Virus record (IMG/VR): IMGVR_UViG_3300017741_000065
Coordinates: 1 to 21,711 of that record
DNA length: 21,711 bases
Direction: 5' to 3' (one strand)
Source: a virus
The notes beneath the pieces were generated by a model. The model ran no database searches. It was not told the origin of the DNA and was given only the letters and a program-made list of their open reading frames with translations. The translations under genes and the position numbers were made by a program. Shown piece after piece: positions 6,001-20,273 of this stretch; the stretch's first letter is position 1, and each line of letters opens with the position of its first letter.

Positions 6001-7225
6001 CTGAGAAAAAAGCATCTCCTTCAACATCCGCATTTCTAACTTCCTTCCAACTTCCTTTTGCAAAATCATCCGCCTTTTTAGCATCTTCAAACACAAACAA
6101 CTCACCTCTTTTTACTGCTTCATTGTAAGCCTCCATGCCGGAAAGCTCCACCCAATAATCCGGATTGTTAGTTTGAATAGATGGGTTCTTAGGGAAAAGA
6201 GTAGGGTAAACCACATCTTTACCATCTATGTTTGCTGATTCAAATAATACAGTAGATTCAGTTCCGTCAGCATTTAATCTTGGAGTTTTTCTTAAATTTT
6301 TTGCACGAAGTGAAGATTGCATAAAATTGCTTTCCACTTCTTCCCTTCTTTCTTCAGGCTTACGTGCATACTTTGTAACAAAATCTTTGACTTTTTGAGA
6401 TTCCCCTACTGCTCCTTTATTAGTAAAGGTGTCAAGGTCTATAGTTTCTGATACTACTTCTCCATTAGGTAAAACAGTAGACATTTTCATTGCATCACCG
6501 AGTCCTGTTTTTACAAAAGTAAATCCATATTTAGCATATAGATTATTAAAGTAAGCAACTCCTTCATCTTCCTCTAAACCAATCGCTTCTGCCGTGGTAT
6601 AGTCTAATGCGTCTATAAATTCCTTAGAGTTTATAATGTCTTTTCTGTTTGCTTCTTCTAATGCAACTTGTTCTGCTGCTTTTTGTTTTTCTTGTGATTG
6701 TGAAAATTTAAGATTTTCTAATTCTTTATCCGCATTTTTTCCGGTAATACTAATATCCGCAAACCTTTGTGACTGTGCTCGGTCTACACGGTCTTGGTCG
6801 GGATACATACCGAGTTGAGACATAGGGTCTCGATATCCTGTAGTTCTCGTATCTTGTCCTGTAACATTAGATGGTGAAAAATCAAATTTTAGTTTTCCAT
6901 TTTCATCAACTTGAATTTCAGAAATATCTCCTTGTAAATCTTGTTTAGGTTTTTGAGAGTCCAAAGAACCATCCCCCGATGGAGAATCCAAACTTGGTTG
7001 AGCCTTGTCTTTTTTTTTTACCGTACCTATGGAATCTAAAAAATCTATAACTGATACATCTGTTTTGTATGATGGGTCTAATTCTCCCATATAGCCATAA
7101 ATTTGAGACGCATATTGTTGGCTACCCATTTCAGTAATAAAATCTTCAAATACCACGTCTTGCTCAAACCCGGCATCATTTGATACTATGTAGTCATATA
7201 CTTGTCTTAAATATTCCTCATTCAT
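1..7225 (-). CDS. Giant phage internal/ejection protein with polyvalent modules and zinc-metallopeptidase motif (C-terminus beyond window)
   Basis: The frame is open for 2408 codons from ATG at 7225 to the left edge; I read every codon and found no stop. It starts 19 bases after the 628-residue gene. Visible parts: an N-terminal unit ending in a VKKKD motif (~1-75); a compact module at ~310-395 containing DGKDVVYPTLF and an F.D..KADDFA stretch, which recurs in large phage virion proteins; a glycine-rich hydrophobic stretch (~697-760), probably membrane-interacting; FDPLAESTGELMAQL (~830-850), typical of phage ejection proteins; coiled coil (~970-1020); a KPKA linker (~1286-1305); a module with GGLGFPGVEGHQNIAWAS (~1428-1600) continuing to HPNYP (~1705); and HEMGH at 1865-1869 with a candidate third ligand Glu1915. 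The rest is helical. Known: T7-type phages place their largest ejection protein last, after gp14 and gp15; large polyvalent proteins carry effector domains into the host. Inferred: an ejected protein carrying a protease that may act on cell wall or host proteins. No lysozyme or transglycosylase motif was recognised. Confidence 0.8.
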   Translation of the reverse strand, partial: MNEEYLRQVYDYIVSNDAGFEQDVVFEDFITEMGSQQYASQIYGYMGELDPSYKTDVSVIDFLDSIGTVKKKDKAQPSLDSPSGDGSLDSQKPKQDLQGDISEIQVDENGKLKFDFSPSNVTGQDTRTTGYRDPMSQLGMYPDQDRVDRAQSQRFADISITGKNADKELENLKFSQSQEKQKAAEQVALEEANRKDIINSKEFIDALDYTTAEAIGLEEDEGVAYFNNLYAKYGFTFVKTGLGDAMKMSTVLPNGEVVSETIDLDTFTNKGAVGESQKVKDFVTKYARKPEERREEVESNFMQSSLRAKNLRKTPRLNADGTESTVLFESANIDGKDVVYPTLFPKNPSIQTNNPDYWVELSGMEAYNEAVKRGELFVFEDAKKADDFAKGSWKEVRNADVEGDAFFSERGYDYLEMTRNFNDYETARDQVLFIEDVLDNPREFKDLSSEEQELYKDFYGKDGFVRGDLPDILEVTQNKVDNLYDFYEDDDLQEVREDYDVYIDKKYQKITKEAVMQNASVQYVENELLTKSLSEFGVTLDELNDYVPDDAEGVKLKDSILTTYKASKDLAQQAANTYEVAQTYLDSKYDENLRGEIVENWAGMSNEIEQGWYRGKAGNEILKLALGLKDIDSDSDTSDVASAIVDYMEAGNTGKTSRAMARWHQAKGFRESWNAFKDNPAELAVSMAGNSISQMLPYGWKIIGSSAATGTGIGAGIGATGFVSGPGGVVTTAGGALTGFSWGLRTGFSATGFALEYTNSIMDAARDNGYNIMNPEEMKMALQDENVWSEGGKRGTARGIPIAIVDMLSAGLAGRLFQVGKTTSLGRRALTGVGERIVFDPLAESTGELMAQLNAGDEIDWKEIFAEGIGGLGNNAPFAALNMALDMRGQNNVTIANDLTTIQGINKELGFKMSVTPEKVSNWSNNMERLGQISTDVNQRIQKNLGLRQDALNVLNATEGGVNKEVLNRTMELMAAKNELESTANRKSVFSSKISEVKAELAELAETKKVRPTDKQTFLQIAGLGRQNTSTDIRSDVKASYNIDGKSITKSKFLKRIGDMSLSSFKKAKIQVDNDQDVAKIINDKFGTDAIQEQKTRGLFENKQTGNIQAVDTEIRNNEEAGGTTTTQENEVETLNDSRIPVKQQAFTYTDPNGETFNATMTTNLDGSRVMRLTDNEGTAFTTEKISKDNTLSNEEYLTNAAGDIQTTEEVDITTVRNPKTENKMSNRQRKAAGLPVKEEVSVETVTETNEVSLKTPTEEVVVDEAEVSDLEATLQESGVKLPPKVKAKPKAKPKAKPKAKPKAKVKGLTPAKKKKRLAEIDAKIKEIRASKRNRATKAALIQELNAERTQIESGEVNFRLKEDLSTEGAGVVEDIVAEMNAQNEAITVDIEAVEETNPDSPKIDVEELNSRTDNPIPTIEWKVIDGVPVIFNISDQLRTGDIVNPSTGNVIDNLKGGLGFPGVEGHQNIAWASIDEGSVKSQIARANRVYDNNKQFFDTWWSKNPEYNGLVPMVITKMESKSILSNEAVVRVLADNLESFPAEVKREALNLFMQTLAKQKESLITRIEKGVSEKTGKPLSKMTIRNYNKDISEISDIQAMVDNIEAATIADIVRPEALSQLKTLASVNKIVDAITYGKTNSPTLTKKPVPGKPGPTSMVAKFLLGDNPSIEERSKLNKGAITDILTEPQLANTPQRSAYMVVGVDVLNPGLEKTTHPNYPVGPRGKVMGIIEQPQSIVELFPSAMNNVVLGQEQELEGSRPKRTSKQRLSQTVPVQTGLSNLEFTGSKVGMDNAGRFMDFLNRSFPFVTISTDQQTMDRVLSSPFVTPYLKEGQVVYGLTQDGKIFINSEVHNTESELYNTAIHEMGHIWVENLKLTPQGKKIYAKGEALVKQTETYKKFLKKFDGDVTKAVDETMATLIGNKGESVVEAGLKQKIKDWIASVWSYVKNKFKLSKDLTVEEIQNLTMDEFLGTALADILGGAPVKMTDKQLTTLTDNLANAMFRTDESIGDIVRVGRENGFSDASIKEVLKGRGYLVSQIKEAMTVQIDGAQNMPTEFSRVEGGVQKAAQLFNEINVALQDFSIKDGQRVKSFSEIREKAQELLKANPIFQAQPEQVQQELQIGFDRSLGYRGNKNVSQELANIRQSLSDKKVGRDNIKQVQLQLKNFIRTMLPKSDKYTQAQLNRLLTAVTKTTVDNFQAQKEKILSVVEQQRAKIKRDVIKDIYKIVKAKASPRKQSGKPRAKGIDAIGQVTFANIKEVLDAVSITNPELRQQALKDIQNKLDSNRVTINESSQKVLNNEELTLREESLLQLQLAYDQFGDLQESSLEVAQALLEDVKQQKKESILRFNNRRLQKAADAEAKRQQATEQIKETNPELFNEDGSLKNENELNEDRDAIEGDNSIGG
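3311..3370 (-). repeat. Five tandem 12-bp units encoding a (Lys-Pro-Lys-Ala) linker
   Basis: Five consecutive 12-bp units read ttttgctttagg on the plus strand; four are identical and the fifth ends in 'ac'. They encode alternating Lys-Pro-Lys-Ala on the minus strand inside the giant gene (residues ~1286-1305). The array stays in frame because the unit is a multiple of three. It separates the acidic, low-complexity middle of the protein from the next folded module, so it looks like a stiff, positively charged linker. The near-perfect copies suggest recent slippage and length variation between strains. Confidence 0.95.
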
Positions 7226-7244
7226 AATCGAGTCTTATTAATAA

Positions 7245-9131
7245 TTAACCCCCGGGTCTTGGAGCACCACCGCCTCCTGCAACTGTTTTCTTTGTTTTCT
7301 GTTCCTTACGCTTACCATAATCATCAGAATATTTTTTCTTTCCGTCTTCATCTAAAAGCATTTTTTGTTGTTCTAAAGACTTGTTAAGTATTTGTTGATA
7401 TATAGCTTCTAATTCAGTTTGAGCCGTATTCCCATTCTTCAAATTAACTTCACCAATTTTCTTACCGTTCTTATCTTGAATATAAATTCCTCTACCCGCA
7501 TTAAATGTTCTAACTTTTATATCAGACATTCCCGGTAAAGAAGATAACTGTGCTTTTACGGTGGCAACCGCAGCTTTTTCTTGGTCTTTAGTAATTGCAG
7601 GTCCTGCATCTACGAGTGCGTCAGCAGGTTTTAATTTAGCACCTTCGTTTTCTTTGTATGCTTCATCAAATGGTAATGTAACTGTTTTTTGTCCACGTGA
7701 ACTAAAGTCATATTCAGTACCCGACAACACAGGCTTGGTAAGGTCTAATTTACCTCTTGTAATCACTTGATTAATGTCAGCAATTTTGTTTTTGTCAGGC
7801 AAGACAAAGTTCATACCCGCTTCAACAAAGTCGGTTTGATTATCACCAAACGTAATTGTTTCACTTGCTCTTCCATCATTAAATGATATTGAAACACCTA
7901 AGCCGTCTTCAGTTAAATTTATTTCTTCTACGTTAGGATTGAATGCTCGTAATGAATCTGCCGCTTTTTGTTTCTGCTCTTTAGTACCATAGTATAATTG
8001 AGAGAAATTACTAACAACACTTACTTGTTGGTCTTCAGCATTTCCTTGGTCAACTTTTGCAGGTGGTTCATATGGTGTAGTACCTGCAGATTTGGTTTTT
8101 TCAGTTTCATCTATTCGTGCACGTATTGCAGTTCTCATTCTTTCTTTCACAACTTCTTCTTGGTCACCTGCAAACTGAACTTTACCCGCAGCATTCTCAC
8201 TACGGTCAATGTACATTAAATTTCCGTCTTTTCCTTGTTTGTCAAATTCATCCTTGTCGTAGGTAAAAGTATATTTTTTACCATTAGGTGCATTTAACAC
8301 ACGGTCGGTAAGTACAGAAGATATATTGTTTGGGTTCTTCATCATTGCTCCAACTTGGTCGTCTTCCCATGCCCTATAGTTAGAAACAAAATCCTCATCT
8401 TCTTGAGAATAATCCCCTGTTTTAGCGTCTACTTTTTGAACAATTGTATTTAGGTTACCCTCCGATGCATATTTAACTACAGAAGTTTCAATAGCACCTA
8501 AGCTACCGGCTGCATTTATTGCTGCGGCATCAAGGTCAAACCTATCGTATTGAGACTTGAGTCTCCCTCTTAATTCAGGAACTGTAGCAAAATCACTTGG
8601 GTTGCTTGAAATTTGACCGTTAACTCTTTTGCCTACACTTATAACTCCATTAGTAGGGTTTATATATCCACCCACATTACGAAGGTTTCCAAGACCTTCT
8701 GACTGCTCCATTTCCCATACCTCTCTGAATGATGATTCGTCTCCTTCCCATCGTGACATTTTGGTCTTATATTCTTCTTGATATTCTTTTGCAAGGTCAA
8801 ACATTTGAGATGTTCCTGACATTCCGTTTTGTCTATTTCTTGTGTAATCTCTAAGAGAAAGTTCTCCGGACTGTAGCAAACGGTCTTGCATTAATCTGTA
8901 TTCTTGCATTCCATTAGAAAAATCTGCAATAAAAGTGTTACCTTGGTCGTAGTCACCGGTGGGAGCATTAGAAAGTTCTTCCCCAAATTTTCGAGAGGCA
9001 TCTTTTATCTCTTCTTTCTTTTTAAACCTTGCTGCAGTTTCAGCCTTAAGCATGTCTGTAACACCCTTGCCAACTTCTGCCCAATTTATTTGGTCCTCTA
9101 CTTCACGCTTTACATATTTATAATAAGTCAT
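7245..9131 (-). CDS. 628-residue phage virion protein, probable internal/ejection protein in the gp15 position
   Basis: Highly charged soluble protein with no signal peptide, membrane segment or recognised catalytic motif. The N-terminus (YYKYVKREVEDQINWAEV) and the section around LSLRDYTRNRQNGMSGTSQMF (~95-115) resemble a structural protein family I associate with flavobacterial podoviruses; this is pattern memory, not a search. The C-terminus is lysine-rich and ends in a flexible GGGGAPRPGG tail. The ATG is preceded by AAGGA with a 9-base spacer, one of the better ribosome sites here, and lies 3 bases after the TAG of the 288-residue gene, in the same reading frame. In T7-like phages the second ejection protein (gp15) sits between gp14 and gp16 and forms part of the conduit through the periplasm; position and size fit that role, but the sequence itself does not prove it. 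Confidence 0.75.
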   Translation of the reverse strand: MTYYKYVKREVEDQINWAEVGKGVTDMLKAETAARFKKKEEIKDASRKFGEELSNAPTGDYDQGNTFIADFSNGMQEYRLMQDRLLQSGELSLRDYTRNRQNGMSGTSQMFDLAKEYQEEYKTKMSRWEGDESSFREVWEMEQSEGLGNLRNVGGYINPTNGVISVGKRVNGQISSNPSDFATVPELRGRLKSQYDRFDLDAAAINAAGSLGAIETSVVKYASEGNLNTIVQKVDAKTGDYSQEDEDFVSNYRAWEDDQVGAMMKNPNNISSVLTDRVLNAPNGKKYTFTYDKDEFDKQGKDGNLMYIDRSENAAGKVQFAGDQEEVVKERMRTAIRARIDETEKTKSAGTTPYEPPAKVDQGNAEDQQVSVVSNFSQLYYGTKEQKQKAADSLRAFNPNVEEINLTEDGLGVSISFNDGRASETITFGDNQTDFVEAGMNFVLPDKNKIADINQVITRGKLDLTKPVLSGTEYDFSSRGQKTVTLPFDEAYKENEGAKLKPADALVDAGPAITKDQEKAAVATVKAQLSSLPGMSDIKVRTFNAGRGIYIQDKNGKKIGEVNLKNGNTAQTELEAIYQQILNKSLEQQKMLLDEDGKKKYSDDYGKRKEQKTKKTVAGGGGAPRPGG

Positions 9132-9134
9132 ACT

Positions 9135-10001
9135 CTAATTTCCTTGAGATTTTTTCCAATCTAAAAACTGTTGATACTCAGAGTTCATCGACCCGGCTCC
9201 ATATTCCATACCAAAAGCATTGTTAAATTGTTTAGGTGCATATGATGCATAAGCAGTTTCATAAGCATCACTTCCAAAAATCTGCCCTTTTTCTGCACCT
9301 GATAATCCCGATTTAAACCTTCTGAAATCTCTATTTTTATAATTTGAAAAATCTATATTTTTTAACTGTGTGTCTCCTACTTTTATATTGTCAAATGATT
9401 TATCAGAAAAGTCCATGTCAGCTACTGCTTTTCTTTGACCTCCTATGTTTTGACTAAATAACGGAACCATTGACAACCCTTGTTGTAATGCGGCACCTGC
9501 CGATTGAATACCTTGCATCTTAGCAGCCTCGGCTCGTCTACCTGCGTCTGCCGCAGCCATTTGAGCACCTTCGACTTCTTGTAAATCTAATTTGACGTTC
9601 ATATCTCTTAAACGAGAATCTTCATCTGCTTGTAATTTTTCGAGTTTATTGACTTCCTGTTCTTGTGCGGCACGAATTTTACCTTGACCTTCTTGTGTGG
9701 CTAATTGAACTCTTCCTACTCCGGCTGCAGCTCCTCGCTCATCACCTTCCACTACTGCTTGAGTTGCACCTGCCGCTTGTTCTAATATTTTTTCTCTTTC
9801 AATATTATATACTTCTTTGTTGACACTTAATTCATCAAAAACATTGACTTCAAGTTTCTTTCTTGCTTCTGCCATCATTTTTTCCGCCCTAAGTTGAGCT
9901 GCCTCTCGTTCTCTTCTTGCGGCTCCGGCTTGTCCAAACGACATCGCAGATGAACCAATGGATACTGCTAAACCACCAATACCTAAAAATAATCCTGACA
10001 T
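9135..10001 (-). CDS. gp14-like internal virion (ejection) protein
   Basis: 288 residues. Residues 3-26 are a glycine/alanine-rich hydrophobic segment (LFLGIGGLAVSIGSSAMSFG), followed by a long Ala/Glu/Arg/Gln-rich coiled-coil region (~29-130) and a second Ala-rich helical stretch (~145-185). This hydrophobic-N-terminus plus coiled-coil layout, and its place directly before two larger internal proteins, match T7 gp14, the ejection protein that enters the host outer membrane to start the DNA channel. The start codon lies inside the last 19 bases of the cupin gene, behind an A-rich AAAAAAGAAAAG stretch, so translation is probably coupled to that gene. The stop is a single TAG that is in frame with the next gene. 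The C-terminal ~100 residues, rich in Phe, Tyr and Ser, are not recognised. Confidence 0.7.
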   Translation of the reverse strand: MSGLFLGIGGLAVSIGSSAMSFGQAGAARREREAAQLRAEKMMAEARKKLEVNVFDELSVNKEVYNIEREKILEQAAGATQAVVEGDERGAAAGVGRVQLATQEGQGKIRAAQEQEVNKLEKLQADEDSRLRDMNVKLDLQEVEGAQMAAADAGRRAEAAKMQGIQSAGAALQQGLSMVPLFSQNIGGQRKAVADMDFSDKSFDNIKVGDTQLKNIDFSNYKNRDFRRFKSGLSGAEKGQIFGSDAYETAYASYAPKQFNNAFGMEYGAGSMNSEYQQFLDWKKSQGN

Positions 10002-10522
10002 AATAACTTTTCTTTTTTAATTACACTTATGGGTAAAGTTTTATAATCTTCCGTGTATACATCTGCTTCTGCATCTTCAAAGGTTTTAGCCTCGGTTTTA
10101 TACACACAACACCACTTAGTATCTTCATGCATATACAATACTCTTTGAGTTCCTATCTGAGTAAAAATAATGTGAGGTGCTTTTATTGTTACAAGTTCCC
10201 CACTATCAGTCAAATATGACACTTTACCTTCAAGCAAAAAAGATGGGTGTTGTTGTTTGTGAATCATAGATATTATAAAATGTCCCTTTGGAATAAACAT
10301 CTGTCTTGTATACAAACCACCCTCTAAAGTTTGTTTAATTGGGTATACTTGTTTACAAATTTCACTTTGTTCTTCACCACACTTATGCGTAATTGCTTGG
10401 TCAAACTTACTCAAATCCTCTCTAAAGGTTTCTATTCTTTCCCAAAGCATTCCCCTGTTTTGATTTACATAATTTAATATGCTTTCAGGTTTATACTCCT
10501 GAACCTCTACAGAATCTTGCAT
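9983..10522 (-). CDS. Cupin-like phage protein
   Basis: 179 residues with a central single-domain cupin (double-stranded beta-helix) pattern. Motif 1 is FIPKGHFIIS followed by His88, His92 and Glu98-Gly99; motif 2 is around Gly124, Arg127 and His132 (GTQRVLYMHED). His88, His92 and His132 are candidate metal ligands, although the spacing departs from the classical enzyme motif. Residues 1-60 look helical and contain Cys48, Cys56 and a charged heptad-like stretch. Similar small cupin-like proteins occur in marine phage genomes without known function. It is the first gene after the promoter at 10541-10548 and overlaps the gp14-like gene by 19 bases, so it is co-expressed with the ejection proteins. 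It could be a minor virion or assembly factor, or an enzyme or sugar-binding protein acting on the host. The fold is fairly secure; the function is unknown. Confidence 0.7.
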   Translation of the reverse strand: MQDSVEVQEYKPESILNYVNQNRGMLWERIETFREDLSKFDQAITHKCGEEQSEICKQVYPIKQTLEGGLYTRQMFIPKGHFIISMIHKQQHPSFLLEGKVSYLTDSGELVTIKAPHIIFTQIGTQRVLYMHEDTKWCCVYKTEAKTFEDAEADVYTEDYKTLPISVIKKEKLLCQDYF

Positions 10523-10526
10523 ATAA

Positions 10527-10559
10527 TTAAATTTTATTTACAAAGATAGTAAAATTTAA
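10527..10559. repeat. Perfect 10-bp inverted repeat around the second promoter element
   Basis: TTAAATTTTA (10527-10536) and TAAAATTTAA (10550-10559) are perfect inverted copies separated by 13 bases that contain the TATCTTTG promoter element. The left arm lies between the element and the cupin start codon; the right arm covers the stop codon of the 276-residue gene. The arms are all A/T, so the hairpin would be weak as RNA and has no following U-run, which argues against a terminator. An operator for a dimeric regulator, or chance in AT-rich DNA, are the alternatives. Confidence 0.55.
10541..10548 (-). promoter_or_regulatory. Bacteroidota-type -7 promoter element for the cupin-ejection block
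   Basis: On the minus strand this reads TATCTTTG followed by TA, matching the Bacteroidota sigma-factor -7 consensus TAnnTTTG. It lies in the 33-base gap before the cupin gene, 18 bases upstream of its ATG. A clear -33 TTTG is not present at the expected distance (the region reads TCTTTCCC). The only other copy I found in the window has almost the same distance to a start codon (17 bases), which strengthens both. Confidence 0.55.
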
Positions 10560-11386
10560 GGGAAAGATTTCATCACTTCAGATTCAACCGCAAACAGTTC
10601 TGAAGGATTAATGGCAATAGTTTTGTCTAAAGTAAGAGTAAACTCACAGTAATGCCCCAAAATACCATGTGATTCTGCTATAGGATTCTTAATATAAAGA
10701 AAATAAGCATCATTTATAGGGACAGGATAAGTAGTACCCGCCACCGTAGTAGTGTCAATTACTAATTGATTTATGCCATTTACTTTATCTACTTGGATAT
10801 CAGTAATTACACCCGCAAATTGAGGGGTGTCGTAGGGAGGTACTGAAAAATAAAGATAATCTCCAACACTAACGATACTTCCAATATTAACATTCAAATT
10901 AAAAAGTATTTCATATGCTGCAGCAGGACCGTTTTCGGACACACTTCTGCCTATTCCATTTAAAGAACGTAATTCAAAAGCACCTTGCGTTACACCTGCA
11001 CCTGTATTGTTATTGGTTCTTATAAAAGCAAACCAATCTCCCTCTTTTCGCTCATACCAATTTTCTGTTGGACCTGCGGTAATATATCCATTGTTTTGAA
11101 TGTCAGTATTACCATTAAAACTCCAAGCATCATCACTTTCTAAATTAATAGTTTTAAATATTTTATTTTGTAAAGGTTGCTCATTAAATACTGTAGAGAT
11201 AGTAGAGTCGTAAGTGGTTCCATAAAAAGTATTATAGTTACTATTGACATTGTGTCTAAACAAATTACCACCTTTAAAGGTGTAAAAGTATTGATTCATT
11301 CCTATCATATAATCAGGAAAGTAAGAGTAAAAAGATGGAAATCCTTTTGAACCTTCGCTATATGTTAATGTATAATTTTCGGGCAT
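10556..11386 (-). CDS. Tail-tip protein resembling the distal part of muzzle/stabilization proteins
   Basis: 276 residues, no signal peptide. Residues 8-27 (TYSEGSKGFPSFYSYFPDYM) and 34-46 (FYTFKGGNLFRHN) followed by a Tyr/Asn-rich NTFYG stretch form a pattern that I know from the distal portions of tail muzzle/stabilization proteins of Crassvirales-like and other Bacteroidota phages, where the K-G-W/F-x-S-F-Y motif precedes 'tf.gG.ly.Hn'. The C-terminus (SELFAVESEVMKSFP, 262-276) also fits that family. The start is 2 bases after the preceding stop. As the large upstream gene carries the proximal muzzle part, this gene probably supplies a separate polypeptide of the same tail-tip assembly. 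It is the last gene of the first block; a new promoter element follows. Confidence 0.65.
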   Translation of the reverse strand: MPENYTLTYSEGSKGFPSFYSYFPDYMIGMNQYFYTFKGGNLFRHNVNSNYNTFYGTTYDSTISTVFNEQPLQNKIFKTINLESDDAWSFNGNTDIQNNGYITAGPTENWYERKEGDWFAFIRTNNNTGAGVTQGAFELRSLNGIGRSVSENGPAAAYEILFNLNVNIGSIVSVGDYLYFSVPPYDTPQFAGVITDIQVDKVNGINQLVIDTTTVAGTTYPVPINDAYFLYIKNPIAESHGILGHYCEFTLTLDKTIAINPSELFAVESEVMKSFP

Positions 11387-11388
11387 AA

Positions 11389-12318
11389 TTAACAGTTTGT
11401 TAGTGAGTTTATAATACCATCTCCATCGACAACCATTGTCTTTCTAATTACACCTACCTGTATATAGTAAGTTCCTTGAGATGCTTTTACAGAGCCGTTA
11501 GGGTCTACAACGCAAAATTCATTTACTGCAGGGTCCCCTGCAAGTCCTCCTGAATTTGGAACATTAAAATAAGTATTAGGCAAGTTAGCGGTTAAGCAAT
11601 CCGTTCCTCCGGTAACAAGGTTGGATGTTGAAAACCCTGTCAATTGAACCGGACAGTTAATACCAAGAGTCCACCCTGTGTTAGCACAAGGACCAAATAT
11701 CTCAACACTTACAACTTCCGGAGTTTGAAGTGGTTTAGGTATATACAAAGTGACCGGACCCGGAGACGGAATAGTTAATCGAACATCACCGCCATTACCG
11801 GTAACTACACCATTTGACCCTGTTGGGTCAAAATTTGCACCGTTAAAGTTAAAAGTATTTTCTCCTGAATATCCTCCACCATTTAAAGTTTGTGCAATAT
11901 TACAATCGCTATTTATATTTCCAACAAAAGTATAATGTCCATTGGTGTTTGAGGATAAATATCCTTGAGTTGCACTTGTTGTCTCGTTATAGAACTGATT
12001 ATTGTATTGTACCCTTATACCATCGGGTATTGCAGATACATTAAAATATAAAATAATAGCACCTACTGAACTTCCTGTCCCAAAATTCACGGTATAAATT
12101 CCACCACCACCACCGGCATTAATAGAAGTATTACAGGGTAAAACACATGAAGGACAAATAACAACTGCTAACAACACTCCACCTACTTGTTCTCTTGAAA
12201 TGACAGAGTTTGAATAAAATCCATCAGGTGCAGGTGTAGTTAGGGTGGCATCTGTAAATACTGCAGTAGCAGTCTCTAAAGTTGAACCGTCTATAAAATA
12301 ATTTCCAAAAACTCCCAT
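11389..12318 (-). CDS. Glycine- and cysteine-containing tail surface protein, adhesin-like
   Basis: 309 residues, predicted almost all beta and low in Lys. Residues 17-36 (ATAVFTDATLTTPAPDGFYS) followed by Arg42 and CPSCVLPC (55-62) resemble short surface modules repeated in tail proteins of Bacteroidota phages. A GGGGG turn, GAIILYFN (86-93) and PDGIRVQY (98-105) form a second recognisable stretch, followed by Asn/Gly-rich loops, an IPKP motif (~194), and four or five further cysteines, ending in Cys309. It has no signal peptide, which is expected for a virion protein assembled in the cytoplasm. It sits 12 bases after the muzzle gene, in the same frame but behind two consecutive TAA codons. 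Position and composition suggest a tail-tip or fibre-like component touching the host; a specific receptor cannot be named. Confidence 0.6.
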   Translation of the reverse strand: MGVFGNYFIDGSTLETATAVFTDATLTTPAPDGFYSNSVISREQVGGVLLAVVICPSCVLPCNTSINAGGGGGIYTVNFGTGSSVGAIILYFNVSAIPDGIRVQYNNQFYNETTSATQGYLSSNTNGHYTFVGNINSDCNIAQTLNGGGYSGENTFNFNGANFDPTGSNGVVTGNGGDVRLTIPSPGPVTLYIPKPLQTPEVVSVEIFGPCANTGWTLGINCPVQLTGFSTSNLVTGGTDCLTANLPNTYFNVPNSGGLAGDPAVNEFCVVDPNGSVKASQGTYYIQVGVIRKTMVVDGDGIINSLTNC

Positions 12319-12330
12319 ATCTAAATTTTA

Positions 12331-15300
12331 TTAAGGTATTTGATTTGAACACTCACAATCAACCAATTCCACATCAATGTTAGGGTCTGCAAAAACCTCG
12401 GTTGCACATATTGCAACTGACCCAAATCCGGGTACATCAATTTGAGAAGGTTTTATGCAATCCACATAAAAGAATGTTATTGTGTTTTGCGTATTGTTTA
12501 TCAAATTATATTCTTGACAAACTTGTATACAATTAGACACCAATGATATTCCTGTTATAGTATCTTGTGCCACTCCGCTCCCTGATGTGTTTACTACTTC
12601 GTAAATACACCCGTCTTGCAAAGTTACAAAACTCCCAACAAATACCGTAAAGCCTCCGTCATTTACCGGGAATGATGGTTGAACATCACCTCCACAGTTT
12701 TGAACTGTAACTAATTGAGGTGAAGGAGTTAGGTTGCAATCACAATCTCCAACTTCAGTAATTATTAATGCAGGGTCATATGGTTGTATGTCTTTTGCAC
12801 AAGTAGGGAAAACAACTATATCTTGTGGACCAACTGTAAGCGTGTTGGTACTGCCATCACATTGGACATACGTTATTGTTTCTGAAACATTTGTCGGATT
12901 TTCTATTCTATATTCTTGACATACCTCATTACAATCAGTAATAGTAAGTATGTTAGTAATAACTTCCCCTGTTCCTGTTAGTGGGTCACTTGTTGTATTC
13001 ATTACTTCAAACACACAATTATCTTCACTCCAAGATACAAAATCGCCTACCTGAGCATTTTGCCCGAAAGGAACTATATGAGTCTCATCAACAGTTTGTA
13101 ATGAACATTTTTTAATTAATAAATTGCTTGGTTGACAACTTACTAAAACTTTGGATACGCCGGTAGCAGAAGTTAAATCTGTAGCAGCTATGGTAACTGT
13201 TGCTCCATTAGCAATTGGAATAAAAGAAGCTACACCTGAACAATCTGTGTATTGATATAATATAGGTGAGCCTGAAGCATTAGTTATTTCATACTCTTGA
13301 CACACATCTAAACAAGACGATTCGCTTTCTACTTGATTTATTGTTTGAGTTGGTGTTAAACTTGTTAAAGCTAACACTTCCCATCTACAATCTGTATTTG
13401 ACAATATACTTACAATGTCGCCTACTTTAGCACTTGTAGACCCTTGAGATATTGTTTCCAAAGGAACAATTGCTCCGTCAGCTCTACATTGTTGAATGCG
13501 GAAGTTAAGCGGAGTGTTACACTCGCATCCACTATATTGAAGCGTTAAGTCCGCATCTAATGAAACCTGCCCCCCTGTTAAACATATAATATTAGAAGAA
13601 GCCGGTGGGATAGTTTGGCTTTGTTGTTGGAATAAGCAATCAAAATAAATTATAGTTCTGAAAAGAGTAGAGCTTGTATTAGTAACGATGTATTCACTAC
13701 ACTTAGAACTACAATTAAAGTTTGAAGAGAAACTATCTATAGTTGTCCCGCTCCCTGTTGCTGAAACAACAGATGTTATTTCGTAAGCACATCCATTAAC
13801 AAAAACAAAGAATCCAATACTTAGATTTCCTGCTGAATCCAATACCGTAATTGTTTCAGGTATTGAAGCAGGGGTAGTAGTGACCGCAGAGTTTTGGCAT
13901 AATTCTGCCTCATAGTAAATTTGATTACAAACACAGTCTATTAGCGTAACATTAAAATTACCGAGACTACCGGTCCAATTTGTAATTTCTCGAGCACATA
14001 ATTCTATAGTAGTTTCGTCATTAATAAATAATGTCTGAACAATACCATCGCAGTCCGTATACGTTAGGTCACCCCCACCTTCTTTTTCTGCACTATTTTC
14101 TATTTCATATCGTTGACAGACCTCAGAACAATCAGTAAATGAAGAAGCACCTAACATATTAAAGGTTGCTACTTGAGAAACATCAACTTGTAATACTTCC
14201 CAAACACATTGTTGATTGCTACCGTCAGTTATTGTTATTAAATCACCAACTGTTACATTAAATCCTGTAGTATCCGCATATCCTATTTGTGGGTAAGTTA
14301 AACTTTCATAAGAACTTTCACATCTTCTTACTTCCGACACAATTGTCGGAGGTAAAACAGTACAATCACAATCAATTAAAGTAAGCGTTACATCACCTAC
14401 CAATGTAGAAATAGTTTTAGCACAAATGGTTTCGGTATTTCCAATACCAAGACTTATTGTTATACTATCATCGTCACAATCAACATATGTGACATCGTAA
14501 GCGGTATCAGGACTTGTATTTGTAACTTCATATGTTTGACAAACATCTGAGCAGTCTGTAATATCAGTTCTAATTGTTGTTACTACTGCGTTAAGAGGGT
14601 CTTGTGTTTGTTGTACTACTTGATAAACACAATCATCATCACCTACACTAAGCTCTACAAAGTCCCCTATTATTAAACCACCTGCTTCAGTTATTATATA
14701 TTCTACTACAGGGTCTGTGGTGCTTAAGTTACATTTCTGAACTCTTAAGTTATCTCCTGTTTCACAATCACAACACACATCAAATGGGTCAATATTGCCA
14801 TAACATAATTCCACTTCTGTTGGTCTTCTATAATCGTATATTAAATACAAATATTCTTCGTTTGTATTTGGCATAGGAAACTCTACTTGATAAGTGTTTG
14901 GACCACCTGTTATAGGAGTTCCATTAACTGAGGCTGCCATTAAAGCTGCCATATCATTTGGAGTGTTTGCATAAAAAGTATTACTTCTTAAGTATCTCAA
15001 CTCATCTAAAGATGGGTCAAACACATAGTCATCAATAGGTAAGATTCTATTAGAAATTATTCTAACAGAAGCCGTATTAGCCGGTATAAAGCCTCCACCT
15101 TGAGGACCGCTTAATTGAGTATACTGAGATATTAAAGGATTTTGTGTTCCCGCAACGAGCTCTACTTGTTCGCTATGTAAAGGAGAAATAAAAGCTCCAT
15201 CAGTCCATCGGTATTCATTGTGAATAAACTTGTCCGCATCGGCACTAAGAGAATAACAAACTTGAATTATAGTTATTTCCGTGACCGCAGGGCAATTAAC

Positions 15301-18300
15301 AGTTACTTCTAAGGTGGTGGTACCTGAACTTTGAATAGACACTTCTACGGTATCCTCTGCTACAGAGTTTTTATCAACTATTAAAGTACCTGAAACAGTT
15401 GTATTACCTGTACTCACAGTTGTATTGTCGTATTCCGCATCAATGTTAAATGATGGAGTAACTCCAATTACATTGTAATCTATACTTACATCACCTACTA
15501 AATTTCCTACGTCAACGCAGAAATTTGAAGATGAGTTAGATGTAATAATTATTGTTCGAGTTATACCACAATCAATACAAACAGGTGTTGTAGGTAGTAA
15601 TTCAGAAGTAGCACTTAATACGTATTCATTCATGTAAGGGTCATATCCGCCAAGTTTCTGAGTTCCAAAAGAACCTAAGAATAAGTCTCTAAACCAAGAC
15701 CTCATTCCTGCTTCTGATATTACAGTTAACCTTTCGCTTTGACCTGATGTCCCTGTTAATTGAATTACCGCTCCTCTTTTTGCGTCAGTAAAAAATTTAT
15801 TAGGTCCCCATTTTGCATAACTTTCCGGGTTAAAGCTAATACCATATTCTTCAATCCGAGAAATTTGCGTACCCAAAACTTCAGGGATAGAAGCGATAGA
15901 GCCTCCGCCTGTTGAGTCAGATAAAAGGTTTTTACCTTGAAGCACATAAGAAATTTTATCCTCTTGTAATGTGAGTATGTCTGTTTCTCTTCCGTCTATT
16001 TTAAATATAGGTCCAAAGTTTTCTTCAATAGGTTTAAAGTTTAGTAATCCAAGATTAAATTCATTTAGCTTATTAACATTAGATTCATCATTAAACACAC
16101 CACTATAAGTTAAGTCAGCAAACCTTCTTACTTGCTGATAGTCTTGAGCTGATGTCGTAAATATTCTGTTTCCTAATTCAAGAGTTTTCCCTTTTATAGA
16201 GTCACGTGCTTGATAGCTTTCAACTCCATTACCAAAAGAATAACAATTAAAAAATTCTGTAGAAATAATTGCAGGAATACTTCCGGTTTGGTTTTGAATG
16301 TTTCCTGTATGCGTCCCCTCAGTTAAAGGTGAGCTATTAATCGTAACGTCTGCAGGAAACTGCGGAGGTGTTGAAGGGTTTATTGTAACTGAATTACAAA
16401 CTCCAATTACATCTACTATGTTATTGTCATTTTGTACAATAATAGAAGATGATTGATTATTTATATCTAAATAGTCAAACTGAATAGGTGCATTATTTGT
16501 GTCTACCTGTAATTTAAAAAGACATTTGTTGTTTCCCTGAATAATTGGGTAAGAGACAGAACTCTCAAACCATACATCAGGTAAAGCATCTTGAGTTGGG
16601 GTTTCAAATGCAATGAAAGATGTGCTTCTAATAACCTCAATAGTCACTTGAAGTGTTGTCTTTTTTCTACTATTTCCACTATATCCTTTTGAGCTCTTCC
16701 AACTAAAAAACGTACGTCCATTACTTGTTGTAAATTGACAAGAGATTTGTCCTGCACTACATCCTTGAAGAAAACCTCCATTAAGAATTGGATTGTAATT
16801 TATAGCACCTACACCTGACCCTTCATCTGAACCTTGAGCCTCTAATATACCTGCAATGTTACTATTATCAAACCATTCTTTGAAATTATCATACTCTTGG
16901 TCAACAGTAAAAGTTTGGTTTACTGACCATTTTTTAAAAGGCACTCGTCTAATTCCTCTACGTTGATTTAATATTTCAATTCTTACTCTACTACCTGCCG
17001 GAAGAGAGTAATCTACATAGGTCCCCGGGTTAGCACTATCTTCAATATCTACAGGATAGCTTACAACTCTACAACCTGAACCATTACTACTAATTAAACC
17101 GTAATTTACGACAGGATTATCTCCTACATCTGTATTAAATTCATTTGCTCTTATTTTCATATAAGTTCCTGTAGGTACAGGAATTTCTGCTCCGTTTAAA
17201 TCGAGAGGAGCAGGATTAAGAAAATCCCTTGGTTGAGATTTTTTTTCTAATACTGTAGCAAATGCACATCTATTTACCGGTCCTGTTGCATCACTCTTAA
17301 CTTTAAGAATATCTCCTTCTTCAACCTTCGTAGAGTTCTCACCGTCAAGTAAAAAATAATCAGCTCCCGTAGAAGGGTCTGTAAAAAAGAATGTAGTAAA
17401 AACATTAAAACCTCCCTCTTGGTCTTGTTTAATACAAAACTTATATCGTGTTGCAAAAGCAGGTGCAATTTGTTCAGGTGGTATTGTTATTTGTATTTTG
17501 TTTTGTAATTCACTATTGGCACACGGAACAGATATTGTGTTGTTTGGACTTACAAGAGCAGTTGTTGCACGATTAAAATCATCCATATAAATAATACCAA
17601 CTTCGTATGTTCTATCACTATGTAAACTTGTTGGGTTACCTATTTCTAAAAAAGTAAAATCTGCACCTGTAATTTCATAGTATTCGTAAACACTAACTGT
17701 AATAGCCGCTCCTGTAGGGTCGTCAACAAATCGCATAGCGGGTAATACAAAACCAATATTGTTAGAACCGGGAGAAGCCTCTATCCTAATCGGTTGTCCT
17801 GCCGTTGATATACCACTTTCAAGTTTAGTTAAGTTGCCTAAATTATTATTTATAATACAATTAAATTCATCGGTAAAAGTGGTTCCATCACACGCATCAA
17901 CTACAGGTTCTATGTTTGTTATACTACCAACTGCATCTATAAAAGAAACACTTGTAGCGAGTTCGTATACACTATTGTAATCTTGCGGTAATATAAAACC
18001 AAATGATATTTCAGCACTTTGCGTGGTTACATTAGGGAAGTCCGCAGGATTACCTGAAAACTGACTGTGTGTAAAAAATATTTGAATAGAGATAGAAGCT
18101 CCTGCTTTAAGCTCTAAATCCCCAACGTCTATAAAAGCAACTTGAGATTGATTAACTGCTACCACCCCATCTATGGTATAAACTGTAGCAAATAGTTCTT
18201 CTTCAATATCTTTTAATCCAATTATATTAGCTTCTAAATCTGCCGTATATTCTAATTGCGTAGGAAATCCACCTGCAGTTACAATATCTCTTTGTTCTAA

Positions 18301-19347
18301 ATAATTTGCATAAATTAATCTATTACCCATTATAGTTTGAGCAGTAGATAATAAAGGTACGTTGTCGTATAATCTTAAAATTTCACTTGATGGTAGTATT
18401 GTAAATATTTTTTGGTCACTAAATGTGTAAGTATATTCTGTGTTATTAAAAAGTCCTAAGTCTTCTTTGTTTAGTTTTTCAATAACTTTAATAGTACCGG
18501 AGTTCATGTCTTTGAATAGCAAATCAACACCCACTACTAATTCACTTCCGGAGTTGTATGTTATTTCAGCTTGATTCCCAAGGTTTAACATTCCATCATT
18601 TAAGCCTTTTGCAAAACTAAATTGAAAAGGACTTGGTATAAAAGCAGGTGCAGAAAATTGTGAGGTTGCGGAGTATTCACTATCAGCGTATTTATACCTG
18701 TATGCAAAACTTATAAACTTATCTTCTAAAAAATTATTTTGCCCTGAAGTTGGTAAAGTTTTAACAAGCGGAGAATTTAATGGTGGCTTCTTAATTACAA
18801 GAATAGATTCAGCAGTAAAAGCATCAATTGCTGCTTGAGGATTAGGATAGTCTCTTTCTGTGTTTATAAATCTTGGAGGATTATAATTATCAGTAAAAAA
18901 CAATAACTTTGAATCTACTAAGTTTACACCGTTAATTAAGTAATCTTCGTTAAAATTTAAAGTAGTATTTATATTACCACCATCATTAACACTAATAACG
19001 TGGTATGTTAAGATGTTTGTTAAAACATTAAGAGAAACAATAAGGTCTAATTTGTTTGTAACTTGAGAAGTAAAACCGGGGTCCGTAACAAACCAATATA
19101 TAGTTTCATTCGCACCATCCTCAAATGCACCTATACATTTTGCTTGACCCGACAAAGGTATACCTTCGTATTCAAGACTTGTTAAAGCAACATTCCCTTT
19201 TGCATTTTCTACAGAGCCAATTTCTGTTTCTTCTGTAGAACCTAACCTTACGTTTAAGGCATCAGTATATTGCCCATTAGGAATAAGTCTCTCATCGAGA
19301 CCTTTGTTCATAATACCCGCAATAAAATTTCTCTGTGTATTCGCCAT
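12331..19347 (-). CDS. Giant tail muzzle (stabilization/nozzle-like) protein with C-terminal cysteine repeat array
   Basis: 2338 residues. The N-terminus (GIMNKGLDERLIPNGQYTDALNVR, residues ~10-33, then a G.VENAKGN segment) is the typical opening of podovirus tail-tip beta-propeller proteins (T7 gp12 / P22 gp10 role, called muzzle in Crassvirales). A second conserved block at ~1074-1245 includes RFADLTYSGVFN, TDAKRGAVIQL (~1185-1196), ISEAGMRSWFRDLF and LGGYDPYMNEYVLS. After it come an Ig-like beta region (~1275-1351), a segment with QVCYSLSADADKFIHNEYRW (~1362-1381) that recurs in Bacteroidota phage tail proteins, a CCDC cluster (~1523-1527), and six cysteine-rich repeats (1534-2338). Muzzle proteins I recall are roughly 1000-1500 residues; the excess here is mostly the repeats. 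Its ATG is 2 bases after the stop of the ring-protein gene. Role: closes the distal tail and probably presents receptor-contacting modules. Confidence 0.8.
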   Translation of the reverse strand: MANTQRNFIAGIMNKGLDERLIPNGQYTDALNVRLGSTEETEIGSVENAKGNVALTSLEYEGIPLSGQAKCIGAFEDGANETIYWFVTDPGFTSQVTNKLDLIVSLNVLTNILTYHVISVNDGGNINTTLNFNEDYLINGVNLVDSKLLFFTDNYNPPRFINTERDYPNPQAAIDAFTAESILVIKKPPLNSPLVKTLPTSGQNNFLEDKFISFAYRYKYADSEYSATSQFSAPAFIPSPFQFSFAKGLNDGMLNLGNQAEITYNSGSELVVGVDLLFKDMNSGTIKVIEKLNKEDLGLFNNTEYTYTFSDQKIFTILPSSEILRLYDNVPLLSTAQTIMGNRLIYANYLEQRDIVTAGGFPTQLEYTADLEANIIGLKDIEEELFATVYTIDGVVAVNQSQVAFIDVGDLELKAGASISIQIFFTHSQFSGNPADFPNVTTQSAEISFGFILPQDYNSVYELATSVSFIDAVGSITNIEPVVDACDGTTFTDEFNCIINNNLGNLTKLESGISTAGQPIRIEASPGSNNIGFVLPAMRFVDDPTGAAITVSVYEYYEITGADFTFLEIGNPTSLHSDRTYEVGIIYMDDFNRATTALVSPNNTISVPCANSELQNKIQITIPPEQIAPAFATRYKFCIKQDQEGGFNVFTTFFFTDPSTGADYFLLDGENSTKVEEGDILKVKSDATGPVNRCAFATVLEKKSQPRDFLNPAPLDLNGAEIPVPTGTYMKIRANEFNTDVGDNPVVNYGLISSNGSGCRVVSYPVDIEDSANPGTYVDYSLPAGSRVRIEILNQRRGIRRVPFKKWSVNQTFTVDQEYDNFKEWFDNSNIAGILEAQGSDEGSGVGAINYNPILNGGFLQGCSAGQISCQFTTSNGRTFFSWKSSKGYSGNSRKKTTLQVTIEVIRSTSFIAFETPTQDALPDVWFESSVSYPIIQGNNKCLFKLQVDTNNAPIQFDYLDINNQSSSIIVQNDNNIVDVIGVCNSVTINPSTPPQFPADVTINSSPLTEGTHTGNIQNQTGSIPAIISTEFFNCYSFGNGVESYQARDSIKGKTLELGNRIFTTSAQDYQQVRRFADLTYSGVFNDESNVNKLNEFNLGLLNFKPIEENFGPIFKIDGRETDILTLQEDKISYVLQGKNLLSDSTGGGSIASIPEVLGTQISRIEEYGISFNPESYAKWGPNKFFTDAKRGAVIQLTGTSGQSERLTVISEAGMRSWFRDLFLGSFGTQKLGGYDPYMNEYVLSATSELLPTTPVCIDCGITRTIIITSNSSSNFCVDVGNLVGDVSIDYNVIGVTPSFNIDAEYDNTTVSTGNTTVSGTLIVDKNSVAEDTVEVSIQSSGTTTLEVTVNCPAVTEITIIQVCYSLSADADKFIHNEYRWTDGAFISPLHSEQVELVAGTQNPLISQYTQLSGPQGGGFIPANTASVRIISNRILPIDDYVFDPSLDELRYLRSNTFYANTPNDMAALMAASVNGTPITGGPNTYQVEFPMPNTNEEYLYLIYDYRRPTEVELCYGNIDPFDVCCDCETGDNLRVQKCNLSTTDPVVEYIITEAGGLIIGDFVELSVGDDDCVYQVVQQTQDPLNAVVTTIRTDITDCSDVCQTYEVTNTSPDTAYDVTYVDCDDDSITISLGIGNTETICAKTISTLVGDVTLTLIDCDCTVLPPTIVSEVRRCESSYESLTYPQIGYADTTGFNVTVGDLITITDGSNQQCVWEVLQVDVSQVATFNMLGASSFTDCSEVCQRYEIENSAEKEGGGDLTYTDCDGIVQTLFINDETTIELCAREITNWTGSLGNFNVTLIDCVCNQIYYEAELCQNSAVTTTPASIPETITVLDSAGNLSIGFFVFVNGCAYEITSVVSATGSGTTIDSFSSNFNCSSKCSEYIVTNTSSTLFRTIIYFDCLFQQQSQTIPPASSNIICLTGGQVSLDADLTLQYSGCECNTPLNFRIQQCRADGAIVPLETISQGSTSAKVGDIVSILSNTDCRWEVLALTSLTPTQTINQVESESSCLDVCQEYEITNASGSPILYQYTDCSGVASFIPIANGATVTIAATDLTSATGVSKVLVSCQPSNLLIKKCSLQTVDETHIVPFGQNAQVGDFVSWSEDNCVFEVMNTTSDPLTGTGEVITNILTITDCNEVCQEYRIENPTNVSETITYVQCDGSTNTLTVGPQDIVVFPTCAKDIQPYDPALIITEVGDCDCNLTPSPQLVTVQNCGGDVQPSFPVNDGGFTVFVGSFVTLQDGCIYEVVNTSGSGVAQDTITGISLVSNCIQVCQEYNLINNTQNTITFFYVDCIKPSQIDVPGFGSVAICATEVFADPNIDVELVDCECSNQIP
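12334..14748 (-). repeat. Six tandem eight-cysteine protein modules at the muzzle C-terminus
   Basis: Module boundaries by residue: 1534-1670, 1671-1811, 1812-1948, 1949-2075, 2076-2212 and 2213-2338. Each opens with a pattern like LRVQKC, then V/IGDxV, a Cys followed by V/W-Y/W-E-V, a DCxxVC motif, QxYEIxN, Y-x-D-C, I-C-A, and a closing DCxC. In module 1 the cysteines are residues 1539, 1573, 1599, 1603, 1624, 1642, 1660 and 1662. Five modules keep all eight; module 4 has six. The copies are clearly homologous in protein but well diverged in DNA, so this is an old, selected array rather than recent slippage. The second half of the module (QxYEIxN ... YxDC ... ICA) resembles a small beta module frequent in Bacteroidota phage tail proteins. 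Confidence 0.9.
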
Positions 19348-19349
19348 TT

Positions 19350-20273
19350 TTATTTAAGCCATTTATCCTTGCCTCTTAAATTCATAAGTAAACGACCCGG
19401 ATGTATATTACTTATTCTAATTTTTGCATTACGCAATAAAGCACTTTTTCTTTTACGAGCTCGTGCGATAATATATTCTTGAGTCATTGCTTTAGAGTTA
19501 AGTATTGCATACTCGATATAAGCATAAATATAATCTTCAAATAATTTATTAACACTAATTTCTGTATTGTCTCCACCCTCCATTCCATCTGAAACATACT
19601 CAAGAACTATGCTTTGATTTGCTAAATCAGAACTAAAGTTTATTACTCCTCCTTTTTTGTTTATACTAAAAGTAGGATTAGAGTTGGCGGTTTCTGTATT
19701 TAAACCATACCGAGCTCCTATTGAATAATCAAAATACCACAAACCATCACAACAATACCCCTCCAATCCATTAAAAGGACTATTAGAGTTTAAATAAATC
19801 GACCTTGTACTTCCTTTAATTCTATCTATATCTAACTCTGAGAATTGAGGACTTAACGCATTTCCTTCATGGTCAAATAATATCCTACAATTATTGTCTT
19901 GCAAATATGCATCAGACCAATTTGTTTGAATGTTTTCAGTTAAAGGGTAAAGCATTCCATTTTTATAAATAGAAATACGGACCCAATTTACATAATCAGA
20001 TGGTAAAACAAATCTCAATGAATTACAAATAGTTAATTGTAAAATTTTTATTTCTTTAAATGCATCGTAATTTAATTCCTGTATACCTCGTTTAGCGTGA
20101 AACAAAACTTTATATCTTTCCTCGTTGTTTATCAAGTTATGATTACCTGCATACATTAACATAAAATTGTTTACGATATCATACAATGACACGTATTGGT
20201 AAGAACCCCAATTAGCATCTTCGGGTTGGTTCCCATTGTTTTCATAATATTCGTATTGTGATATATATGGCAT
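19350..20273 (-). CDS. Ring/adaptor protein of the head-tail connector (gp11 / gp4 role, Crassvirales ring-protein-like)
   Basis: 307 residues. The N-terminal half is helical with SLYDIVNNFMLMYAG (29-43) and the strongly family-like HAKRGIQELNYD (59-70), followed by LPSDYVNWVRI (90-100). A beta middle section carries YVSDGMEGG, and the helical C-terminus ends in a basic RGKDKWLK (300-307). This order (HAKRGIQE, LPxDYV, SDG, Arg-rich helix, RGKxKW at the end) is one I recognise from the small ring/adaptor proteins that sit between portal and tail tip in Crassvirales-like phages; the functional counterpart in T7 is gp11. Start ATG 20273 lies 6 bases after the previous stop and the stop is 2 bases before the muzzle ATG, matching the usual gene order ring proteins then muzzle. 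Confidence 0.75.
   Translation of the reverse strand: MPYISQYEYYENNGNQPEDANWGSYQYVSLYDIVNNFMLMYAGNHNLINNEERYKVLFHAKRGIQELNYDAFKEIKILQLTICNSLRFVLPSDYVNWVRISIYKNGMLYPLTENIQTNWSDAYLQDNNCRILFDHEGNALSPQFSELDIDRIKGSTRSIYLNSNSPFNGLEGYCCDGLWYFDYSIGARYGLNTETANSNPTFSINKKGGVINFSSDLANQSIVLEYVSDGMEGGDNTEISVNKLFEDYIYAYIEYAILNSKAMTQEYIIARARKRKSALLRNAKIRISNIHPGRLLMNLRGKDKWLK

Follow-up and report, generated by a model that had tools for sequence, protein, structure and literature searches.

In crAss-type phages, the muzzle protein is regarded as the docking gate. The muzzle gp44 of Bacteroides phage crAss001 forms a hexamer at the tail tip and contains an insertion, IG2/crass, that stops at residue 1021 (PMC10172136). 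It is made as one chain of 1371 amino acids with 10 cysteines; the isolated Flavobacterium phage elemo likewise carries the muzzle body and the MUZ_C region in one chain (1493 amino acids, 6 cysteines). Tail-associated proteins of crAssphage are furthermore known to possess tandem arrays of BACON domains, present in several copies, for which host contact has been proposed (PMC6949934).

The window that we analyzed, i.e., the whole stretch of 21,711 bases, belongs to the genome of a phage and is contained, with 5 differences over the 21,711 bases, in a nearly identical record of 58,269 bases (IMGVR_UViG_3300017728_000008). The near-identical 58-kb record also encodes its own GroEL (Cpn60, E=2.5e-59) and GroES (Cpn10, E=1.3e-9) at L103:7638-9749, and a gamma-glutamyl cyclotransferase-like domain (L103:13635-14741, E=2.2e-20) that adjoins a weak match to glutamine amidotransferase. 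An open reading frame (ORF) of 2338 amino acids and 67 cysteines occupies positions 12331-19347 of the window on the minus strand (Table 1). Its identification as a muzzle protein in the initial annotation was upheld by the match to phrog_14478 (E=2.2e-217, best stretch residues 6-757), and the N-terminal part of the protein also matches crAss001 gp44 by profile (E=8.8e-5). The nearest named relatives are filed under Elemovirus, Pachyviridae, and their records name no order.

The C-terminal region of this muzzle (PF25729, crAss_MUZ_C; E=1.4e-15) is found on a separate gene two ORFs further on. Residues 1-1245 of the window body align to residues 1-1239 of the elemo muzzle, and residues 6-276 of the window MUZ_C protein to elemo residues 1260-1493. 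About 290 extra residues, a cysteine-rich array and a separate gene for a 309-amino-acid protein lie between the two muzzle pieces; hence, the proposal that the array ends a muzzle protein is not supported with regard to the ancestral muzzle, since the array sits at a break in this chain, with MUZ_C encoded apart. The window MUZ_C protein matches residues 1200-1284 of crAss001 gp44 (E=2.5e-6), a stretch beyond the IG2/crass insertion that should hold the remaining blades of the propeller. Since MUZ_C is a gene of its own in Cellulophaga phage phi19:3 as well, the split muzzle is common to a wider group. Our search of the literature for a split muzzle retrieved only unrelated uses of the word. 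In the loci L057, L059, L060, L062, L071, and L072, the muzzle body is itself split near its N-terminus, into parts of about 346-362 and 1494-1556 amino acids.

Table 1. Position and strand of the features discussed in the text; residues are those of the muzzle body ORF.
Feature	Position in window	Strand	Remarks
Head/tail structural protein upstream of muzzle	19350..20273	-	phrog_13977
Muzzle body, residues 1-1245	15613..19347	-	colinear with elemo one-chain muzzle 1-1239
Residues 1246-1534	14746..15612	-	conserved in nearer relatives, precedes variable slot, absent from elemo
Six-module array, residues 1534-2338	12334..14748	-	46 Cys; repeat comparison, shuffle test
Module 1 (half A then half B)	14335..14745	-	from residue ~1535, 137 aa, 8 Cys
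Module 2	13912..14334	-	from residue ~1672, 141 aa, 8 Cys
Module 3	13501..13911	-	from residue ~1813, 137 aa, 8 Cys, most divergent
Module 4	13120..13500	-	from residue ~1950, 127 aa, 6 Cys, C6 and C8 both lost
Module 5	12709..13119	-	from residue ~2077, 137 aa, 8 Cys
Module 6	12334..12708	-	from residue ~2214, 125 aa, 8 Cys
Next gene	11389..12318	-	309 aa, 9 Cys
Muzzle C-terminal region, separate gene	10556..11386	-	PF25729 crAss_MUZ_C
Short tail-fibre / adhesin-like protein	9983..10522	-	phrog_24280, phrog_12032
Putative cargo protein	9135..10001	-	288 aa, no Cys
Putative cargo protein	7245..9131	-	628 aa, no Cys
Putative cargo protein	2..7225	-	no Cys, 3187 aa in longer record, runs off window

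The last 805 residues of the muzzle ORF hold 46 of its 67 cysteines and are made up of six in-register copies of one module, as the initial annotation had described them. Pairwise identity among the copies is 20-34%, and their alignment alone is too divergent for scanning a collection. When each copy was scored with an HMM built from the other five, it reached 45-79 bits (E from 1e-12 to 3e-23), while 2000 shuffles of the same residues topped out at 8-18 bits. Every copy therefore stands far above its own shuffles, and the repeat array is confirmed. The cysteine pattern attributed to the modules needs two corrections: module 4 lacks two of the eight cysteines (that of the "ICA" motif and the last of "DCxC"), and module 3 reads "ICL" in place of "ICA".

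When we searched the relatives with separate HMMs for its two parts, the module (AB) proved to consist of two separable all-beta half-domains. Half A carries the motifs C, VGDxV, CxYEV, and DCxxVC, and half B the motifs CxxYxIxN, YxDC, ICA, and DCxC; in the fused module, one cysteine doubles as the last of A and the first of B. Half B occurs without A in L003, L028, and L055, B units alternate with A-like units (called by eye) between PT-rich linkers in the L036-L053 group, and AB pairs are present in a third group of relatives. We collected 51 distinct AB copies, six from the window and the rest from uncultured phages, in addition to lone A or B halves. Nearly all of the 51 keep the eight cysteines, which are thus conserved in relatives; the notion that tail-tip proteins rarely carry such an array is not supported by this comparison, given that many relatives do. 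Up to four B half-domains also stand ahead of MUZ_C, in the same gene, in L037:20500-22440, L030, and L042, which brings to three the number of tail-tip sites where the half-domain is employed.

An AlphaFold2 model of a single module, calculated with 24 modules from the window and the fetched loci, contains ten strands and is all-beta (pLDDT 90.5, pTM 0.79). This supports the initial idea of a common module family, with a fold that is predicted confidently. For two joined modules the prediction was less certain (pLDDT 83.9, pTM 0.52), which lends no support to the idea of a rigid stalk.

The AB module yielded no credible match among the Pfam, NCBIfam, and PDB families. PHROG matches were single and weak, a Pfam scan of all six modules found BACON to be absent, and none of the Pfam carbohydrate-binding families matched the modules credibly. 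Weak Pfam matches, Borealin among them, were dismissed as chance. A Foldseek comparison of the module with the PDB returned nothing at E<=0.001, and the best structural match was BFVD entry A0A6J7WZY8 (E=4.8e-4 for a single module, 1.6e-6 for two), an unannotated protein of 841 amino acids from an uncultured Caudovirales phage with low global TM-scores (0.41 and 0.22). A tblastn search with the array and two other module pairs gave no matches in 50,697 phage records. Among 295 genomes from the class of a Bacteroidetes MAG, there were only two module matches, both marginal and partial, which gives no support to the idea that the module was captured recently from a gene of the host. We conclude that the AB module is a new domain, while its kind of arrangement, with beta domains in tandem on the tail of a crAss-type phage, is already known from the BACON arrays.

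To place the array among its relatives, we retrieved about 150 muzzle-body loci in two scans of IMG/VR and recorded the tails of the 106 distinct bodies with complete ends. The slot that follows residue ~1530 was empty in 28 of them and held two AB modules in 19, B halves only in 17, PT-linked A/B units in nine, the fused next gene in three, six AB modules in one (the window), a single AB module in one (L007), and other content in 28; the AB counts are HMM matches, and the B-only and other classes stem from a rough automatic rule under which short tails may have been mis-filed. In one single case, L075, the slot is occupied by a Laminin_G_3 domain of the laminin-G/concanavalin lectin type (Pfam, E=1.1e-13). 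The tree of the muzzle bodies contains at least 20 changes of tail type. Judged by these comparisons of sequences, domains are swapped at the position that follows residue ~1530. The array looks like an exchangeable arm, since the same position is empty in some relatives and in others holds a single module, a pair of modules, or sticky domains of an unrelated kind. The lectin-type domain that stands in for the array in L075 indicates that the slot is probably surface-exposed, and the many relatives with an empty slot indicate that infection does not, as a rule, require such arms.

The initial annotation had read the divergence of the copies as long-term selection for their number. The supported clade of seven members to which the window belongs contains AB counts of 6, 1, 2, 2, 2, 2, and 0, which lends this view no support; its zero is L047 (the sister of L006), in which the modules are gone and the neighboring 309-amino-acid protein is fused to the body. 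A pair of AB modules is the norm, and six is found among the relatives only in the window phage. In a large clade with two AB modules, the first modules cluster together in the module tree and the second modules do likewise. It follows that this clade has retained an ancient pair, a constancy at two rather than at six. The module trees have long branches and gave neither a firm placement nor an order of duplication for the six window copies; a recent tandem duplication is unlikely as their origin. One might also regard the array as neutral baggage that grew by chance unequal exchange and whose six copies have no selected role, a reading in line with the uniqueness of six among the relatives, with the two cysteines missing from one module, and with the lack of modules in L047 and many others. 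We consider it quite improbable, as the copies are divergent, all in frame, and keep all eight cysteines in five out of six cases, from which it appears that selection maintains the module fold.

The cysteines of the modules are lost by twos. C6 and C8 are missing together from window module 4, and both C4 and C5 from the first modules of L143 and L144, the C1 of which lies just beyond the extracted stretch and is visible in the close relative L142. Gains likewise come mostly in twos, with two or four extra cysteines in modules of L028, L086, and L090, so that an even set is conserved through two independent pair losses and several paired gains, with one exception. Module 1 of L117 and L127 has nine cysteines, the shared ninth replacing the V of VGDxV; this odd count might serve to link chains. 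Loss in pairs is to be expected of disulfides, but not of a metal site made up of four cysteines. Hence, the modules are probably clamped by disulfides, and the two loss events suggest the pairings C4-C5 and C6-C8. In principle, the CxxxC and CxC pairs could instead hold zinc or an iron-sulfur center, which would enable the modules to fold in the reducing cytoplasm. The cysteines do stand in close pairs (DCxxVC, DCxC), a spacing that also occurs in metal sites. Apart from the loss by twos and not by fours, the drift in the spacing of the third and fourth cysteines from CxxxC via CxC to CC argues against bound metal, which we regard as very improbable. The initial annotation had reasoned that, with assembly in the reducing cytoplasm, the bonds would have to form after lysis or the cysteines to bind metal; disulfides have been observed in tail proteins of a crassvirus by cryo-EM (PMC10172136), so that their presence in a virion poses no special puzzle here, and this observation too speaks for disulfides in the array.

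Cysteine content differs sharply between the protein classes of these phages. The three cargo-type ORFs (window 2-10001; L103-L105) contain no cysteine in 4103 residues, and over the relatives only 4 cysteines occur among the 61,124 residues (not de-duplicated) of the two smaller cargo types; the values for the muzzle bodies and the next gene are 1.71% and 3.12%, respectively. According to a review, cargo proteins are probably in a partly unfolded state during their passage (PMC10136315), and such a transit would explain their avoidance of cysteine.

The gene that follows the muzzle ORF has the same layout as tail-fibre adaptors: its first ~60 residues are conserved, and the remainder is variable or swapped in relatives. 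L047, L064, and L079 have it fused to the muzzle body, and in L020, L028, L089, and L090 its relatives end in AB modules of their own. The modules could be pure spacers that bind nothing and hold the product of this gene at a given distance from the muzzle, the true adhesin then being the 309-amino-acid protein. AB modules behind the N-terminal region encoded by the next gene (L020, L028, L090) are in keeping with such a role, as are the fusion of the 309-amino-acid protein to the module-free body of L047, the scaffold-like retention of cysteines and core at low sequence identity, and the parallel of Ig-like or BACON linkers, bacterial BACON domains having been described as linkers (PMC6949934). 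A spacer, however, should be conserved in length, and the count of modules runs from zero to six inside one clade; a lectin-type domain, moreover, can occupy the same slot. We therefore view a pure spacer as rather unlikely. As far as sequences can tell, the lectin-type replacement in L075 leans towards an adhesin and the recurrence of AB modules on the neighboring gene towards a spacer.

Our preferred reading, which we hold to be somewhat probable, is that the six copies of a two-part, probably disulfide-clamped domain act as adhesive or spacer arms at the swap slot of the muzzle. The array would be a string of six all-beta A+B domains hanging off the muzzle, or tail nozzle, of a marine phage that is related to the crAss phages of the gut, with the slot falling where the C-terminal part of the ancestral muzzle chain is interrupted, and the separate MUZ_C piece would presumably rejoin the muzzle during assembly. 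If the muzzle were a hexamer as in crAss001, which we only infer because the relationship to the crAss001 protein is distant, each virion would display six arms and 36 modules. These arms would lie outside the particle, where they may bind the host surface, touching or reaching through its surface layer before the muzzle docks; alternatively, they may hold the neighboring 309-amino-acid protein towards the host surface. An arm that branches off at the propeller would not necessarily extend as far as the tail tip. The stalk-like, receptor-reaching structure that had been envisaged initially stays plausible, while rigidity and a selected copy number are unsupported. More tentatively, the nozzle propeller may be built from two separately made chains, the break between them serving as a port for exchangeable disulfide-clamped adhesin arms and AB being a new family of arm units.

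A slot that is naturally swapped between 0, 1, 2, and 6 modules or a lectin-type domain makes it possible to address directly which structures the muzzle contacts. Annotation by the length of the whole chain will miss or mis-name split muzzle proteins, and the contrast in cysteine content that sets exposed proteins apart from ejected ones may be of use in distinguishing surface proteins and cargo when crAss-type genomes are annotated. In its overall plan, the locus follows crAss001 gp44 and the elemo muzzle, with a colinear body and MUZ_C region and then cargo-type genes; it differs from both in that the chain is split and that 290 amino acids, the six modules, and a further gene lie between the pieces. 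Phage phi19:3 (Pachyviridae; gp120/gp121) shares with the window a separate MUZ_C and an extra C-terminal tail on the body, but this tail consists of other domains and has no AB module. Like the BACON arrays, the window array is a tandem series of small beta domains, according to the predicted fold, on a tail-associated protein; unlike them, its modules have no Pfam BACON match, are two-part and cysteine-rich, and reside on the muzzle itself.
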